From positions 1 to 36,639 of the forward strand of contig JAGXIO010000248.1 of assembly GCA_024635555.1 (NCBI GenBank): 36,639 nucleotides of DNA, written 5' to 3'. This document shows, piece by piece, positions 3,361 through 34,586 of the stretch. This DNA comes from Saccharicrinis sp. GTDB lineage: Bacteria > Bacteroidota > Bacteroidia > Bacteroidales > Marinilabiliaceae. Numbering within the stretch: position 1 is the first letter of the stretch; every line of letters begins with the position of its first letter. The position numbers were made by a program, and so were the translations under genes. The notes beneath the pieces are model-generated. The model made no database searches. It had not been told where the DNA came from and saw only the letters and a list, made by a program, of their open reading frames with translations.

Positions 3361-3390
3361 GCTATCAGCTAACAGCTAACAGCTAACAGC
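3361..3390. repeat. 7-bp tandem array after the YwqK-family gene
   Basis: Three near-perfect copies of the heptamer CAGCTAA (GCTGTTA when read in the direction of the minus-strand gene) plus flanking partial copies. The array begins about 11 nt past the stop codon of the gene at 3402-4262. It resembles the arrays at 32316-32385 and 34531-34586, whose units are also CAG + YWAR-like. Confidence 0.7.
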
Positions 3391-8273: not shown

Positions 8274-8340
8274 AAATTTTAGTGCGCAAGTTCGTTGAAT
8301 TGGGGTAGATAATGTGGAGAAGGATAGATAAGGGATGATG

Positions 8341-8512
8341 TGCTGATGTGCTGATGTGGGGATGTGCTGATGTACTGATGTGCTGATGTACTGATGTACT
8401 GATGTGCTGATGTGCTGATGTGAGGATGTGAGGATGTGAGGATGTGCTGATGTGGGGATTTATGGATGTGCTGATGTGGGGATGCGGCGATGATGTGGGG
8501 ATTTGGGGATGT
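8341..8512. repeat. octanucleotide tandem repeat array (TGCTGATG)
   Basis: Nineteen consecutive 8-bp units from 8341 to 8492, most often TGCTGATG, with variants TACTGATG, TGAGGATG and TGGGGATG, then a degenerate tail to about 8512. Variation sits at unit positions 2-4 while GATG is nearly constant. It lies between the EamA transporter gene and the porQ promoter. The minus strand is open through it (HISTSAHP-like residues), but this is only translated repeat and is not called a gene. Confidence 0.9.
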
Positions 8513-8551
8513 GTATTCATCTATCAGCTTACCAGCTTTTTGGGTGGCTAC

Positions 8552-9460
8552 TTATATCCTTTTGAATTGAGTTTCAGACTTTTTGAATTTTATCTGCGAC
8601 ACAAACAATCCGCTTACCACTATTACAATACCCAATATTTTTTGTAGGTCGATGGTGTCACCAATAATCCACCACGCAAACAATGCTGTGAACACCGGGA
8701 TAAGGTTGGTGAACATATTTGTTTTGGCCACGCCCAAAAACTTAATGGCCTTGGTAAAAAAAACAAAAGCCAGCGACGAGGCAAAAACCGCCAACTGAAG
8801 CACGGCTATCCACGACTCCTTGGTAATAGTTGTCGTCATCAAACCTTTAAATTCCCAAATAAAAAAGAAAGGGGTAAACATAAAAATGCCTATGAAGTTT
8901 TGATAAGCGACAATATTTATGGCAGAGTAATTTTGCGAAAGTTTTTTTAACGACAATGAATATCCTATAGTGCTGAAAACGGCAACCAGCATAAGCATGA
9001 TACCCAATAAGGATGCTTTGAGCTCAAAACCATTTTCCAATACCATAATACCTATGCCAAAAAACGAAATAAACATGCCTAAAACAGCCCATGCCGTTAT
9101 CTTCTCCTTTAAAAATAAAAAGGCAAACAGTGTGGCAAATAAAGGTATGGTGGATACAATGACAGCCGCAAGGGTACTGGACACCAATTTAACACCAAAA
9201 CTTTCGCCCATAAAATATAAAAAAGGCTCAAAAAAAGCCACCAACAACATCAGTTTAAAATCCTCCCTTTTTATCACTTTCAATCTGCGCGTAAGCACTA
9301 AGAATAAAAACAAAAGAACAGCACTTATTATCAATCGGAAAATAACAGTGGTAATAGGGTTAAGCGATTCGTAGGCCACTTTTACCCACACAAACGAAAG
9401 AGCCCAAAAAATCATGGACAGCACAATGTAAATTACCGACGACAAACTTGTTTTAACCAT
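8552..9460 (-). CDS. EamA-family (DMT superfamily) transporter
   Basis: An inner-membrane permease of 302 residues with about ten hydrophobic helices in two EamA repeats (about 5-135 and 148-285), the usual size and layout. The first helix has the family pattern FWALSFVWVKVAYE and the second repeat ends WWIIGDTIDLQKILGIVIV. EamA proteins export metabolites such as amino acids or nucleosides; the substrate here cannot be told. The open frame reaches 9490, but the start MVKTSLSS at 9460 is preferred: a -7 element at 9479-9486 would place the transcript start downstream of the longer alternative. Gene alone on its strand. Confidence 0.88.
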   Translation of the reverse strand: MVKTSLSSVIYIVLSMIFWALSFVWVKVAYESLNPITTVIFRLIISAVLLFLFLVLTRRLKVIKREDFKLMLLVAFFEPFLYFMGESFGVKLVSSTLAAVIVSTIPLFATLFAFLFLKEKITAWAVLGMFISFFGIGIMVLENGFELKASLLGIMLMLVAVFSTIGYSLSLKKLSQNYSAINIVAYQNFIGIFMFTPFFFIWEFKGLMTTTITKESWIAVLQLAVFASSLAFVFFTKAIKFLGVAKTNMFTNLIPVFTALFAWWIIGDTIDLQKILGIVIVVSGLFVSQIKFKKSETQFKRI

Positions 9461-25816: not shown

Positions 25817-26285
25817 TAAATCGGTTCTTTTTTGTGCAGTCATTTTGATGACAGCTCTGTTATCGTGTGAGCCAAATGTGGTTTACGAAAACACCGTGAG
25901 CATACCTCAAAATGGTTGGCACAAGGATACCGTGGCAATATTTAAAAGTGAAGTTTCGGATTTAAAGCAAGCCTATCATCTTTTGTTGGAGGTTGAAAAT
26001 ACCGATACCTACGGATATAACAATATTTGGTTTTTTGTAGATGCCGTGTCGCCATCGGGTCATAAGCAGCGCGACACCTTAGATTGCCAGCTGGCAAACA
26101 ATGCCGGACAGTGGTTCGGCAAAAAGAGTTGGGGTTCCGAAAGCTTTACAAGTACGCATCCCTATAAACTTAACATCCGTTTTCCGGAAACTGGCTTGTA
26201 TAAATACTATGTGGTACAAGGAATGCGCGATACCGTTTTAACAGGTGTGGCAAGTGTGGGTATAAAGATAATAGAGGTTGAATAG
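25806..26285 (+). CDS. gldH: gliding motility lipoprotein GldH
   Basis: A 159-residue lipoprotein. MQNNKSVLFCAVILMTALLSC is a lipoprotein signal with the modified Cys21. The mature part has the GldH pattern: NTVSIPQNGWHKDTVAIFK, YHLLLEVENTDTYGYNNIWFFV and LYKYYVVQGMRD near the end. GldH is required for gliding in Flavobacterium and is kept in many non-gliding T9SS-bearing Bacteroidota. The start lies inside the end of ricT (11-nt overlap), so translation is probably coupled. The frame is open further upstream, to 25695, but only within ricT. It is followed by a degenerate heptad array (26291-26367). Confidence 0.87.
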   Translation: MQNNKSVLFCAVILMTALLSCEPNVVYENTVSIPQNGWHKDTVAIFKSEVSDLKQAYHLLLEVENTDTYGYNNIWFFVDAVSPSGHKQRDTLDCQLANNAGQWFGKKSWGSESFTSTHPYKLNIRFPETGLYKYYVVQGMRDTVLTGVASVGIKIIEVE

Positions 26286-26290
26286 CGTAT

Positions 26291-26367
26291 AGCTAATGGC
26301 TGATAGCCAGTGGCGACTAATGCTATTTGCCAACAGTCATAAGCTATTAGCTAATCGCCATCAGCCA
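26291..26367. repeat. degenerate 7-bp repeat array after gldH
   Basis: Eleven successive 7-bp units can be laid out (AGCTAAT, GGCTGAT, AGCCAGT, GGCGACT and so on, ending ATCGCCA, TCAGCCA). Units vary, but most keep GC/GCC or GCT at a fixed phase. The block begins 5 nt past the gldH stop and ends 16 nt before the trmB start. It looks like an old, diverged relative of the clean heptad arrays elsewhere in the window. Confidence 0.5.
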
Positions 26368-31814: not shown

Positions 31815-32321
31815 ATGTTGAAAAAAGCAGTAGAAGATATTCTAGTAACTCAGATAGAAAAAGAGGGTTATTCGTCGAACCTATATTTATCAATGGCTTC
31901 GTGGGCCGAAACCAACGGATTGGAAGGTGTTTCGAAATGGATGTATGCCCAGGCTGAAGAAGAAAAAATACACATGCTCAAGTTTATGAAATTTGTAAAC
32001 GAACGTGGAGGTAAAGCGGTTATTCCAGCTATAAAGCAGCCACCTACAAATTACAAAAACGTAAAGGATGTTTTTGAAGAAACCTTGAAACACGAACGTT
32101 CAATTACGGCGAGCATCAACGAAATTGTTGGCGTGTGCCTCGATGAAAAAGACTTTACTACCCATAACTGGATACAATGGTTTGTGACCGAGCAAACGGA
32201 AGAAGAAGCTTCGGTGATGGCCATCATCGACAAGCTTAAATTGCTGGACGGACACAACCTTTACATGTTCGACCGCGATATTGTTGGACTCAGAGGCAAC
32301 GTGCCGGCAAGTCAGCAGTAA
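31815..32321 (+). CDS. ftnA: bacterial ferritin
   Basis: A 24-mer iron store of the non-heme FtnA type, 168 residues. The ferroxidase ligands align at the very numbers used for E. coli FtnA: Glu17, Glu50, His53, Glu94, Gln127 and Glu130. Three of them lie in AEEEKIHM and FVTEQTEEE. Residues 1-140 form the four-helix bundle and LDGHNLYMFDRDI the fifth helix. Length and motifs are normal. The end is unusual: the last codons CAG CAG and the TAA stop coincide with the first unit of the 7-bp array at 32316-32385. The start is confirmed by MLKKAVEDILVTQIEKEG. Divergent from the carboxylase operon. Confidence 0.95.
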   Translation: MLKKAVEDILVTQIEKEGYSSNLYLSMASWAETNGLEGVSKWMYAQAEEEKIHMLKFMKFVNERGGKAVIPAIKQPPTNYKNVKDVFEETLKHERSITASINEIVGVCLDEKDFTTHNWIQWFVTEQTEEEASVMAIIDKLKLLDGHNLYMFDRDIVGLRGNVPASQQ

Positions 32322-32385
32322 GCAGTAAGCAGTAAGCAGTAAGCAGTTAACAGTAAGCAGTTAACAGTAATCAGTAAGCAGTAAA
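32316..32385. repeat. 7-bp tandem array starting at the ferritin stop codon
   Basis: Ten consecutive heptamers: mostly CAGTAAG, with CAGTTAA, CAGTAAT and CAGTAAA variants. The ferritin stop TAA (32319-32321) is inside the first unit. The array ends before the terminator at 32423-32466, so it is transcribed in the 3' part of the ferritin mRNA. Confidence 0.9.
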
Positions 32386-32422
32386 CTGTCTTAACGGCAA
32401 AAATTGTTTATAAATTTGAACT

Positions 32423-32466
32423 CAAAAAAAGCCAGAAAGGAGAACACACTCTTTTCCGGCTTTTTT
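32423..32466 (+). terminator. intrinsic terminator of the ferritin gene
   Basis: AAAAAAGCC (32425-32433) pairs with GGCTTTTTT (32458-32466), with further pairing inside (AGAAAGG with CTTTTCC, one mismatch). The T-run follows on the plus strand. It is about 100 nt past the ferritin stop because the repeat array lies between. The A-run before the stem could make it work in both directions. Confidence 0.85.
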
Positions 32467-32504
32467 ATTTATTTAATACGCAGAAAACGTTTACTTTTAG
32501 GCCG

Positions 32505-32993
32505 ATGAAAAAAATTGTCAATCCATTCGTAAACAACCCGCAGCATGAGCATGAGTGTTTTGGTTGTTCTCCCCTAAATAAAATTGGTTTACAATTACAG
32601 TTTTGGGATGCAGGAGATGAGATTATCTGTAAGTGGCTCCCTAAAAAACAATTTGAAGGTTACCTGAACGTGGTGCACGGCGGCATACAAGCCACGCTGC
32701 ACGACGAATTAGCCAGTTGGACGGTATATACCAAGTGCCAGACCATGGGCGTAACTTCCAATATTGATGTCCGTTATAAAAACCCTTTGATGATAAACGG
32801 TAAAGAAATCACCATACGAGCCCGCATTGAAAGCCACAACAGACGTTTTGCCGTTATAAATACAACCATCGAAGATGACCAAGGTAATATATGCTCAATG
32901 GCAAAAGTAACCTACTTTTTATTTTCACAACAGGATTCCATAGAGAAATACAACTACCCAGGTATTGACGCATTTTACGAAAAACAGTTTTAA
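32505..32993 (+). CDS. PaaI-type hotdog thioesterase
   Basis: A 162-residue acyl-CoA thioesterase of the 4HBT/PaaI group. The helix of the hotdog fold is NVVHGGIQATLHDELASW (about 56-73), where HGG and the acidic residue (Asp or Glu in HDE) are the catalytic features of this family. The N-terminal ECFGCSPLNKIGL (18-30) is a common opening in this subgroup. Substrate unknown. The stop overlaps the CLC gene context as TAAATG, with the ATG directly after the stop codon, so the two genes form one translationally coupled unit. The leader from 32466 to 32505 is very short and no riboswitch is seen in it. Confidence 0.88.
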   Translation: MKKIVNPFVNNPQHEHECFGCSPLNKIGLQLQFWDAGDEIICKWLPKKQFEGYLNVVHGGIQATLHDELASWTVYTKCQTMGVTSNIDVRYKNPLMINGKEITIRARIESHNRRFAVINTTIEDDQGNICSMAKVTYFLFSQQDSIEKYNYPGIDAFYEKQF

Positions 32994-34277
32994 ATGGGTC
33001 TTAAAAGTCGCCTAAAGCAAAACATACCTTTGGGTATTATCCCCTCCTTATTGTATCTTGGGAAATGGATTTTGCTATGCGGCATAGTTGGTTTGTTGGC
33101 GGGTTCGGCTTCCGCGGTATTTTTGATTGCCCTGGAGTGGGCCACAAACTTTCGGGAATCCAACATCTGGATGATAGCGCTGTTACCCTTGGGCGGACTA
33201 TTGATTGGCTTGAGCTACCACTATCTAGGAAAGTCGGTAGTGAAGGGCAATAACCAGATTTTGGAAGAATTCCATAGCCCCAAAAAAATCATCCCCTTAA
33301 AGATGGCTCCGCTGGTATTGTTCAGCACCGTGGCCACGCATTTGTTTGGTGGATCGGCCGGACGTGAGGGCACAGCTATACAAATGGGCGGCGCTATTGC
33401 CGACCAGTTTACAAAGCTATTCAGGTTAAATCCTGCCGACCGGAAAATTTTATTGATAACCGGGGTGAGCGCCGGCTTTGCCTCCATCTTTGGCACTCCC
33501 TTGGCGGGAGCCGTATTTGCCTTAGAAGTTTTTGTAGTAGGCAGAATGCGTTACGATGCTATTGTACCCAGCTTTTTGGCCGCTATTTTTGCCAACGAGG
33601 CAGCACATCTCTGGCCCATACATCACACCGTTTATTCCATTCCTTTTGTACCGGACTTATGGGCTCCCCAGCTTTTATGGGCCTTGGTAGCCGGCATCTG
33701 TTTTGGTTTGGCAGGGATGCTTTTTTCAAATGCCACGCATTTTTGGGGCGCTCTTTTTAAAAAGACTATTAAATATCCGCCTTTACGTCCGTTAGTTGGT
33801 GGCGTTTTTATCGCTTTGGCGGTTTGGGGAGTGGGCACCCGCTGGATTGGTTTAGGTATTCCGGTTATTGTGGAGTCTTTTAATCATCAATTGCCTTTCG
33901 GCGATTTTTTACTGAAAATATTATTCACCTCCTTCACACTCGGCGCTGGTTTTAAAGGTGGCGAGGTTACTCCTCTGTTTTTTACAGGAGCGGCACTTGG
34001 AAGCGCACTAACTCTATTTATCCCATTGCCCGTAGCTTTGCTGGCAGGCATGGGATTCGTGGCCGTTTTTTCGGGTGCCACCAATACGCCTATCGCTTGT
34101 ACCTTAATGGGCATTGAGCTTTTTGGAGCAGATGCTGGCGTGTTTATAGGGATAGCTTGCGTTACAGCGTATCTCTTCTCGGGCCATACCGGTATTTATG
34201 GCGAGCAGATAATCGGAAGCCCTAAAAACCTATTATTTGGTTCGGATAAAGGCAAAAAGTTAAATCAGTTGGAGTAG
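32994..34277 (+). CDS. CLC-family antiporter, probable fluoride/proton exchanger (CLC-F type)
   Basis: An inner-membrane CLC protein of 427 residues with about 10-12 helices. The gating glutamate Glu125 lies in GSAGREGTAIQMGG (120-133). FGTPLAGAVFALEVF (166-180) is helix G and GFKGGEVTP (319-327) is helix N. Canonical chloride CLCs have GREGP and GGIFAP; here the residues are GREGT and GGEVTP, as in the fluoride-exporting CLC-F branch. Relative to the known Enterococcus CLC-F the pattern matches with near-constant offset: Glu125 (E118), Glu324 (E318), Thr326 (T320), Tyr402 (Y396). Position 86, next to Gly85, is Asn, where that protein has Met79. The gene starts right at the thioesterase stop. 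Fluoride export is inferred from these residues. Confidence 0.88.
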   Translation: MGLKSRLKQNIPLGIIPSLLYLGKWILLCGIVGLLAGSASAVFLIALEWATNFRESNIWMIALLPLGGLLIGLSYHYLGKSVVKGNNQILEEFHSPKKIIPLKMAPLVLFSTVATHLFGGSAGREGTAIQMGGAIADQFTKLFRLNPADRKILLITGVSAGFASIFGTPLAGAVFALEVFVVGRMRYDAIVPSFLAAIFANEAAHLWPIHHTVYSIPFVPDLWAPQLLWALVAGICFGLAGMLFSNATHFWGALFKKTIKYPPLRPLVGGVFIALAVWGVGTRWIGLGIPVIVESFNHQLPFGDFLLKILFTSFTLGAGFKGGEVTPLFFTGAALGSALTLFIPLPVALLAGMGFVAVFSGATNTPIACTLMGIELFGADAGVFIGIACVTAYLFSGHTGIYGEQIIGSPKNLLFGSDKGKKLNQLE

Positions 34278-34583
34278 AGTTGAAAGTTGAAAAGTTGAAA
34301 GTTCTAACTCAAAAAGCAATATGCTATAAATAGTATAATTGCACATTTGAGTTCCCTGCCTACCCCAGGCAGGGATTATTGGAAGTGCTCTTTTTTGCGG
34401 GTAAGCTGATTGCTGTTAACTGTTAACTACTTTCCCGTCAAAAATAAATTAAGTTAATGTGACGGGATGTTGAGTGAAACGAAATCCCGATGCTTCCAAT
34501 TTATTTTACTTCGGGGTCACTTCGTTCCAACTGTTAACTGCTTACTGTTGACTGCTTACTGTTAACTGACCACTGCTTACTGC
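34278..34583. repeat. 306-bp intergenic region made mostly of repeats
   Basis: No gene. In order: a GTTGAAA-type heptad run right after the CLC stop (34278-34304); palindrome CCCTGCCT/AGGCAGGG (34354-34374); two CTGTTAA heptads (34413-34426); inverted repeats CCCGTCA/TGACGGG (34434-34466) and CGGGAT/ATCCCG (34463-34489); and the clean heptad array 34531-34586 leading into the yebC stop. The CLC and yebC genes are convergent, so this is the end region of both transcripts; no T-run terminator is obvious. Confidence 0.7.
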
Positions 34584-34586
34584 TTA
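34531..34586. repeat. 7-bp tandem array starting at the yebC stop codon
   Basis: Eight heptamers (CTGTTAA, CTGCTTA, CTGTTGA, CTGCTTA, CTGTTAA, CTGACCA, CTGCTTA, CTGCTTA). Read in the direction of yebC this is TAAGCAG repeated, and the stop TAA (34586-34584) is the first three bases of the first unit. The unit equals that of the ferritin array (CAGTAAG) in the same orientation relative to its gene. Confidence 0.9.

Follow-up and report, generated by a model that had tools for sequence, protein, structure and literature searches.

The window analysed here, a stretch of 36,639 nucleotides from Saccharicrinis sp. (contig JAGXIO010000248.1), contains tandem arrays of seven-base units, or heptads, placed at or closely behind the stop codons of a ferritin gene, of yebC and of three further genes. 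These arrays are probably dispersed non-coding mosaic repeats resembling repetitive extragenic palindromes (REP) and bacterial interspersed mosaic elements (BIME): heptads, some of them enclosing an in-register core of the form TGGAGCRAAGYGACAT-CCCGNC-AT-rich loop-GNCGGGA, which recently multiplied in one clade and lie past stop codons. The presence or absence of the core between sister species suggests a spreading repeat family and no gene switch. Elements of this kind would multiply within one clade of the genus and would settle mainly in the first bases past a stop, with an orientation peculiar to each type of heptad; mRNA 3' ends would thereby become longer, and the coding sequence would usually stay intact. 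Heptad units would be gained or lost in whole sevens through slippage or unequal exchange, and cores would come and go between heptads.

Nine genomes of the genus were compared, among which G000 is the genome under study and G005 and G006 are sister genomes, G006 also serving as an outgroup. The features around ferritin and yebC, read from the sequence and with Tandem Repeats Finder (TRF), are as follows.

32316 to 32384, plus strand: CAGTAAG/CAGTTAA heptad array after ferritin, without palindromic core, between the stop and a terminator-like hairpin.
32319 to 32321, plus strand: ferritin stop TAA, in register with the units, at a position common to all nine genus genomes examined.
32435 to 32456, plus strand: terminator-like hairpin 3' of the ferritin array (consensus match); a similar one follows ferritin in G005 and G006 by eye.
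34530 to 34586, minus strand: CAGTAAG/CAGTTAA heptad array after yebC, with the stop TAA (34586-34584) in its first unit (sequence, TRF).
34432 to 34529, minus strand: palindromic core TGGAACGAAGTGAC...CCCGTCAC...TTTTTGACGGGAA with a nested palindromic module, the module being missing in the G005 copy.
34405 to 34431, minus strand: second CAGTTAA heptad stretch past the yebC core, orientation unchanged (sequence, TRF).

The 3' end of the ferritin gene (PF00210, plus strand) reads CAG-TAA-GCAGTAAG... and the tract continues after the stop as CAGTAAGCAGTAAG...; TRF reports a 7-mer in 10.7 copies at 32310-32384, with 85% matches. The yebC gene (PF01709, minus strand), whose closest named matches come from Saccharicrinis sp. 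LH_M89 (94%) and Plebeiobacterium sediminum (86%), reads from its stop into TAAGCAGTAAGCAG. Both tracts carry CAGTNAN heptads, and the phase of the stop within the unit, CAG-TAA-N, is identical in the two. A first-pass annotation of the window had described the ferritin CAGTAAG repeat with its TAA inside a unit, together with the same repeat behind yebC, in the same orientation relative to the gene and again using its TAA as the stop; both descriptions are borne out, the former by sequence and TRF alike. Overlooked at that stage was the hairpin core, TGGAG...CCCGTCA...TGACGGGA, contained in the yebC tract. The shared sequence between the heptads emerged when the yebC tract was set beside the G005 ferritin tract, and searches then showed a dispersed element with a constant layout: heptads, TGGAGCRAAGYGACAT, a stem CCCGNC...GNCGGGA round an AT-rich loop, and heptads again.

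Copies of the core were sought with a covariance model built on 17 short copies, the 150 best candidates per genome being scored. At least 69 copies were found in G000, at least 44 in G005 and at least 12 in G006, numbers that are lower bounds because only those 150 candidates were scored, and none was found among the 150 best candidates in each of the other six congeners. Under stricter filters, with 19 candidates scored each, cores were present in four of 295 genomes drawn from the order. The stem is supported by covariation: at two variable positions, all 21 copies of a first set are paired (TC/GA 13, CC/GG 7, TT/AA 1). These copies keep GACATCCCG and GGGAA, a pattern that makes no requirement of pairing, and the set was partly fetched by a pattern that fixed the 3' side as GA and left the 5' side free. 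A larger set of 113 copies from G000 and G005 came from a model in which pairing raises the score; of the 104 that were parsed, 88 are paired (TC/GA 42, CC/GG 36, CA/TG 5, TT/AA 3, TA/TA 2) and 16 unpaired. Such covariation fits a DNA hairpin as well as an RNA hairpin. A scan of the window against Rfam 15 at gathering score gave no match, and a known RNA family was on that count rejected for the window. Nor does the element have the terminal inverted repeats of a miniature inverted-repeat transposable element (MITE), since its core ends, TGGAG... and ...CGGGA, read as unrelated by inversion and the outer heptads are direct. No target-site duplication was seen beyond the heptads at the site pairs read, and one of 7 bp would hide within the heptads. 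Another palindrome, CCTGCC...GGCAGG, turns up repeatedly between genes (window 34350-34377; L362, L375), and a variant of it lies inside one core, that of the G005 ferritin tract.

In the CAGT and GCT families the core sits between the heptads without breaking their period. When it was cut out of the copies with a full core and both flanks (67 of the 113, all families together), the flanks continued one another at lag 7. In G000 (44 copies) identity across the cut was 0.66 at this lag and 0.14-0.38 at lags 4-6 and 8-11; in G005 (23 copies) it was 0.63, those other lags reaching 0.28 at most. Lag 3 gave 0.52 (few positions compared) and 0.54, respectively. By family, lag-7 identity in G000 and G005 was 0.73 and 0.73 for CAGT heptads and 0.67 and 0.64 for GCT heptads; the exact edge of the core is a fitted one, the cut having been chosen so that the families match. 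Furthermore, core and heptad type co-segregate. CAGT heptads accompany a TC stem in 29 copies and a CC stem in 3, and GCT, GAGA or CTCAA heptads accompany a CC stem in 28 and a TC stem in 5. This comparison covers 65 of the 113 copies, whose type was assigned from simple counts of words on the left side of the core; the others have another stem, a nested module or no clear type. For TC-stem cores, the nearest gene boundary lies before the core in 23 of 29 cases in G000 and 14 of 16 in G005, the two genomes to which all flank analyses refer.

Heptads of the CAGT type are themselves strongly oriented. A search for the CAGT pattern with CAGTNANCAGTNANCAGT returned 155 matches and its reversed-pattern control none, so that 7-bp tandems of the TAACTGA type are present in this genome. 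At least 33 CAGT-type tracts were collected from this genome, a set limited by the pattern search reaching the first 100 of these matches, and 29 remained once four within predicted open reading frames (ORFs) were excluded. Read in the CAGT direction, 26 of the 29 arrays are preceded by a same-strand stop and 3 by a start. Among the 21 that lie in same-strand (tandem) spacers, 20 run away from the stop and one towards it (binomial P 2e-5), and the imbalance persists, 17 against 1 (P 1.4e-4), with one array per spacer and the window excluded, two arrays being the window's own. Six further arrays lie between two stops and two between two starts, spacer classes that are about equal overall (97 and 107). 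The stop is overlapped or at most 13 nt away in 18 of the 29 arrays; 11 of these 18 hold it in register as CAG-TRA-N, and the same register is found in four of nine tracts lying wholly past the stop, where 1 in 7 would be expected.

One explanation for this register is insurance: because seven is not a multiple of three, a tract offers stops in every frame and might be kept as a backstop. In its favour, besides the 11 in-register stops, are two genes (C30:16853 and C30:18195) whose reading frame has come to end within the tract, with tails such as TVISEQLPVSSYQ. Sense stop triplets are no denser than antisense ones, at 10.2 and 9.5 per 100 nt in 18 tracts of several types (P 0.5), and the sense strand of the C30:16853 tract stays open for 13 codons, so that we regard stop insurance as very improbable. 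On the same lack of a strand difference, an excess of stop triplets was rejected as the cause of the orientation.

Period 7 and closeness to stops were also assessed independently of the CAGT pattern, in a sample of 1,428,142 bases made up of 99 stretches, one from each of contigs 1-101 except 91 and 99 and each reaching at most 20 kb into its contig. The 756 intergenic spacers of at least 30 nt in this sample comprise 239,415 bases. At a score of 14 or more, 39 intergenic tracts have lag 7, against 0-7 at each of lags 5, 6, 8, 9, 10, 11 and 13 and a mean of 1.0 in three shuffles; heptanucleotide tandem arrays thus exceed chance in this genome. At a lower threshold there are 48 tracts, 18 of which overlap a stop or lie within 12 nt of one. 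Random placement in the same spacers predicts 7.9 with 12 nt of overlap allowed (none of 2000 trials reached 18) and 9.4 with 20 nt allowed, which is closer to the reach of the detector (two of 2000 as high). For starts the same detector found 5 tracts against 4.1 expected (P 0.37). In an earlier TRF-based count, 15 of 42 intergenic tracts lay at stops (8.6 expected) and 10 at starts (4.4 expected). The preference for stops is therefore found by both detectors and that for starts by one only, and we make no claim for starts because the second detector did not repeat the enrichment. That the arrays are scattered between genes at random, independently of stops, is scarcely credible. This view could draw on the start excess of the TRF-based detector, which implies that gene ends in general may be favoured, and it is contradicted by the stop counts and by the 20-to-1 orientation; on these two grounds random placement is rejected for the CAGT type.

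The outcome that the first-pass annotation had named as fatal to its proposal, random placement relative to stops, was accordingly not found for CAGT arrays, and its judgement that chance is unlikely agrees with the excess of lag-7 tracts over shuffles and with the register of tracts wholly past the stop. Its broader statement, that position and orientation are tied to stops, stands for the CAGT type and needs narrowing for some other heptad types, which are also found at starts, the tie to stops varying with the unit. GAGATAA/TTATCTC tracts end 12 nt from a predicted (uncertain) start in three unlinked spacers (L143 688-728, L142 14944-14986, L149 5438-5469). Some spacers appear by eye to be heptad-periodic almost from end to end, passing from CAGTTAA behind a stop to TTAATCT before the next start (L140 19216-19360, L036 17119-17400).

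Within the window, heptads had also been noticed close behind a CLC gene, a gene designated YwqK and gldH. All three are there, that at gldH by eye only.

34278 to 34303, plus strand: AGTTGAA heptads right after the CLC (PF00654) stop, 0 nt past the TAG at 34275-34277 (sequence, TRF).
3361 to 3390, minus strand: GCTAACA heptads (GCTGTTA outward from the gene), 11 nt past the stop of the 'YwqK' gene, which is a MORN-repeat gene (MORN_2, PF07661) (TRF).
26286 to 26330, plus strand: degenerate TATAGCT/AATGGCT/GATAGCC heptads right after gldH (PF14109), whose stop is at 26285 (by eye; not listed by TRF).

The window further holds an eight-base array of the GATGTGCT type (about 18-22 units by TRF) at 8336-8513, after the stop of a minus-strand gene ending at 8552. 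A run resembling it, CAGCACAT, lies behind a core at C137:21391 (L239), and lag 8 is the second commonest lag in the intergenic scan.

Matching sites in the sister genomes (38 G000/G005 site pairs were found, part of which were read) bear on the history of the arrays. Ferritin ends at the same codon in all nine genus genomes, with clear heptads only in G000 and degenerate heptads plus a core in G005, so the tract was added behind an old stop; in G006 the stop is at the same codon without a tract. At C30:19220 the G006 stop is again at the same codon with no tract, and G000 has heptads only where G005 has heptads and a core. This contrast, heptads alone in G000 and a core within heptads in G005, recurs at ferritin, C30:18195 and C51, as well as for GCT heptads (L173, L184) and TCTA heptads (L048), and the reverse is seen at C30:978, with the core in G000 and heptads only in G005. 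C270 carries an element in G005, none being seen at the matching G000 site. Nested palindromic modules within the core vary between the sisters (yebC, C115, C175), and the yebC tract of G005 is 28 nt, that is four units, shorter than that of G000, a difference in unit number for which the first-pass annotation had proposed looking.

These comparisons bear on the idea that the arrays are working elements of 3' untranslated regions (3'-UTR), protein-binding sites or structures under selection, with a role in mRNA 3'-end stability or in adjusting termination. The orientation of CAGT tracts after stops would suit such a role, as would the position of the ferritin tract between the stop and a terminator-like hairpin common by eye to G000, G005 and G006; the window has four matches to the terminator consensus, including this one, against 3.2 expected from shuffles, and hence no excess. 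One core with its flanks folds at z -4.1 relative to shuffles and shows stem covariation; others reach -2.9 and -2.6, and the ferritin heptads alone -1.9. A clear tract at ferritin and yebC was not seen in seven of the nine genus genomes, tract length and content vary between sisters, GCT-heptad cores (CC stem) within 40 nt of a boundary are oppositely oriented, 9 of 12 having the core ahead of the stop, and a DNA hairpin predicts the covariation equally well. A 3'-UTR function is therefore unlikely.

A possible, if doubtful, alternative is pure replication slippage: a chance 7-base near-duplicate after a stop would expand, the polymerase favouring a 7-bp step, placement at stops would reflect tolerance, and the cores would be unrelated repeats that landed there. 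The lead of period 7 over the other lags tested is in its favour and extends to 80 loci of other Bacteroidota (11 tracts against 0-4 at other lags), as is the four-unit difference at yebC. Slippage alone does not predict that the same few unit families occur at unlinked loci, nor the co-segregation of unit and core, the register of CAGT and GCT heptads and the 20-to-1 orientation. The same division applies to the earlier proposal that arrays are seeded at TAA/TAG sites. The old stops at ferritin and C30:19220 and the in-register beginnings of tracts agree with it, and pure slippage as its mechanism does not explain tracts enclosing a dispersed palindromic core that unrelated loci have in common and whose type goes with the heptad type. 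Core-free tracts may still have arisen by slippage, because no more than 7 of the 48 tracts in the sample have a core as near as 60 nt.

The 41 tracts without a core within that distance, which slippage would predict, are one of several observations that weigh against REP/BIME-like mosaic repeats as the explanation. Looked at from the core, a clearly heptad flank was found in 9 of 15 sampled cores and in 75 of the 113 copies overall, random places giving 12.8%. Register is less clean outside the CAGT and GCT families: GAGA heptads score 0.72 at lag 5 and 0.62 at lag 7 in G000 (15 copies), with 0.60 and 0.64 in G005, and four CTCAA copies lean to lag 8. CC-stem cores share no common direction (12 against 9 in G000, 4 against 10 in G005). 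Gain and loss of the core are indistinguishable at most sites, and the gene calls come from our own ORF and hexamer model, with no annotation (80% coding; starts uncertain). Finally, no mobilising enzyme is linked to the element. Y1_Tnp transposase genes, the candidate mover, are found in all nine genus genomes, core-free ones included, and the surroundings (600-700 nt on each side) of three of the ten Y1 matches of the genome itself contain no core; for one of these three, on C209, a core lies 1.4 kb from the Y1 gene. Two of the three have other palindromes around them. Two Y1 genes of G000 (L342, L137) are flanked by palindromes of their own (CCACAGGCTTTAGCCTGTGG; AACTCC...GGAGTT), seemingly ordinary REP-transposase pairs unlike the heptad cores.

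A different reading, which we consider rather unlikely, is a process that deposits heptads at gene ends, laying units in register with the stop and reading outward at both ends of the gene with the AG-rich strand outward, and with cores inserted so that no heptad is broken. Such a process would define a novel class of element that targets the gene boundary, common to Bacteroidota and to the heptamers of Beggiatoaceae and Cyanobacteria. Its basis is an AG polarity that forms no part of our main claim and whose measure (AG against CT) and distance cut were picked post hoc, with the data already seen. In same-strand spacers, 14 tracts lie no more than 23 nt from the stop, and 12 of them are richer in AG than in CT when read in the sense direction; among 25 tracts at least 49 nt away, AG is the lower in 19, the higher in 5 and tied in 1 (Fisher P 1.5e-4); the lower AG far from the stop means that, near starts, AG runs outward from the gene. 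For tracts whose closest gene boundary is a stop no more than 15 nt away, the score is 15 against 2, and at any distance 19 against 11 (P 0.20). In G005, starts within 60 nt agree in 6 of 6 cases and stops within 20 nt weakly (5 against 3), and in the 80 loci of other Bacteroidota the arrays are too few to judge.

To our knowledge, there is no agreed explanation of the origin or placement of heptanucleotide repeats in bacteria. The cyanobacterial short tandemly repeated repetitive sequences (STRR) with heptanucleotide units are plain tandem repeats. Among long simple sequence repeats (LSSR), the heptanucleotide is the commonest period in most genomes surveyed (summarised in MacGregor, 2015; PMC4679880); the arrays described here share the period with LSSR and STRR and add polarity and hairpin cores. 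Closest to them are the TAACTGA heptamer repeats of Beggiatoaceae, Cyanobacteria and five Bacteroidetes, which are mostly intergenic, have sister units and may overlap stops (MacGregor, 2015; PMC4679880): the unit is identical up to strand (TCAGTTA/CAGTTAN), and related sister units, a mostly intergenic location and stop overlap are likewise shared. In Flexibacter litoralis one TAACTGA set stands directly behind a stop (PMC4679880), in the same sense as the CAGT tracts. In BOGUAY most sets lie upstream of, and face, start codons, those of Microcystis being mixed (PMC4679880), whereas a stop precedes 26 of the 29 CAGT arrays and a start only 3; not all genomes in that paper follow BOGUAY, and the direction of its majority, facing the downstream start, is that of the AG-outward polarity noted above. 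The tracts studied here differ, moreover, in that some contain a core, in a layout common to other heptad families, and palindromes go unmentioned in the accessible part of PMC4679880.

REP and BIME, in turn, are multicopy short palindromes between convergent and same-strand genes, often less than 20 bp from 3' ends; they occur as singletons, dimers and tandem groups, and their termini often provide the stop codon (Di Nocera, 2013; PMC3733652). A high-copy short palindrome outside genes and near 3' ends is found here too, with clear placement for the TC-stem type only, but with a long AT-rich loop and a setting of heptad arrays. The end tag of REP is GTAG or CGTC; here a GGAG stands some 10 nt off the stem, and CGTC is confined to the stem of the TC type, the CC type having none. 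Heptamer repeats of this unit, including their overlap with stops (PMC4679880), and REPs that lie behind or supply stops (PMC3733652) are thus already in print. Neither the in-register core inside heptad tracts, nor its family-by-family match with the heptads, nor the 20-to-1 orientation after stops was found in the accessible part of the open-access literature; both ingredients are known, and their in-register union and polarity look new.

Returning to the REP/BIME-like mosaic repeats, we infer that their cores are mobile in the sense of gain and not only of loss. Tolerance probably explains most of their placement at 3' ends, a certain preference for in-register stops adding to it, and the elements would be mostly selfish or neutral. 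The site pairs between sister species, in which an old stop stands with or without a tract, a tract with or without a hairpin, and tracts differ by whole units, open the origin of heptad arrays to strain sequencing, and the link between heptad arrays and REP-like palindromes likewise becomes a resolvable question.

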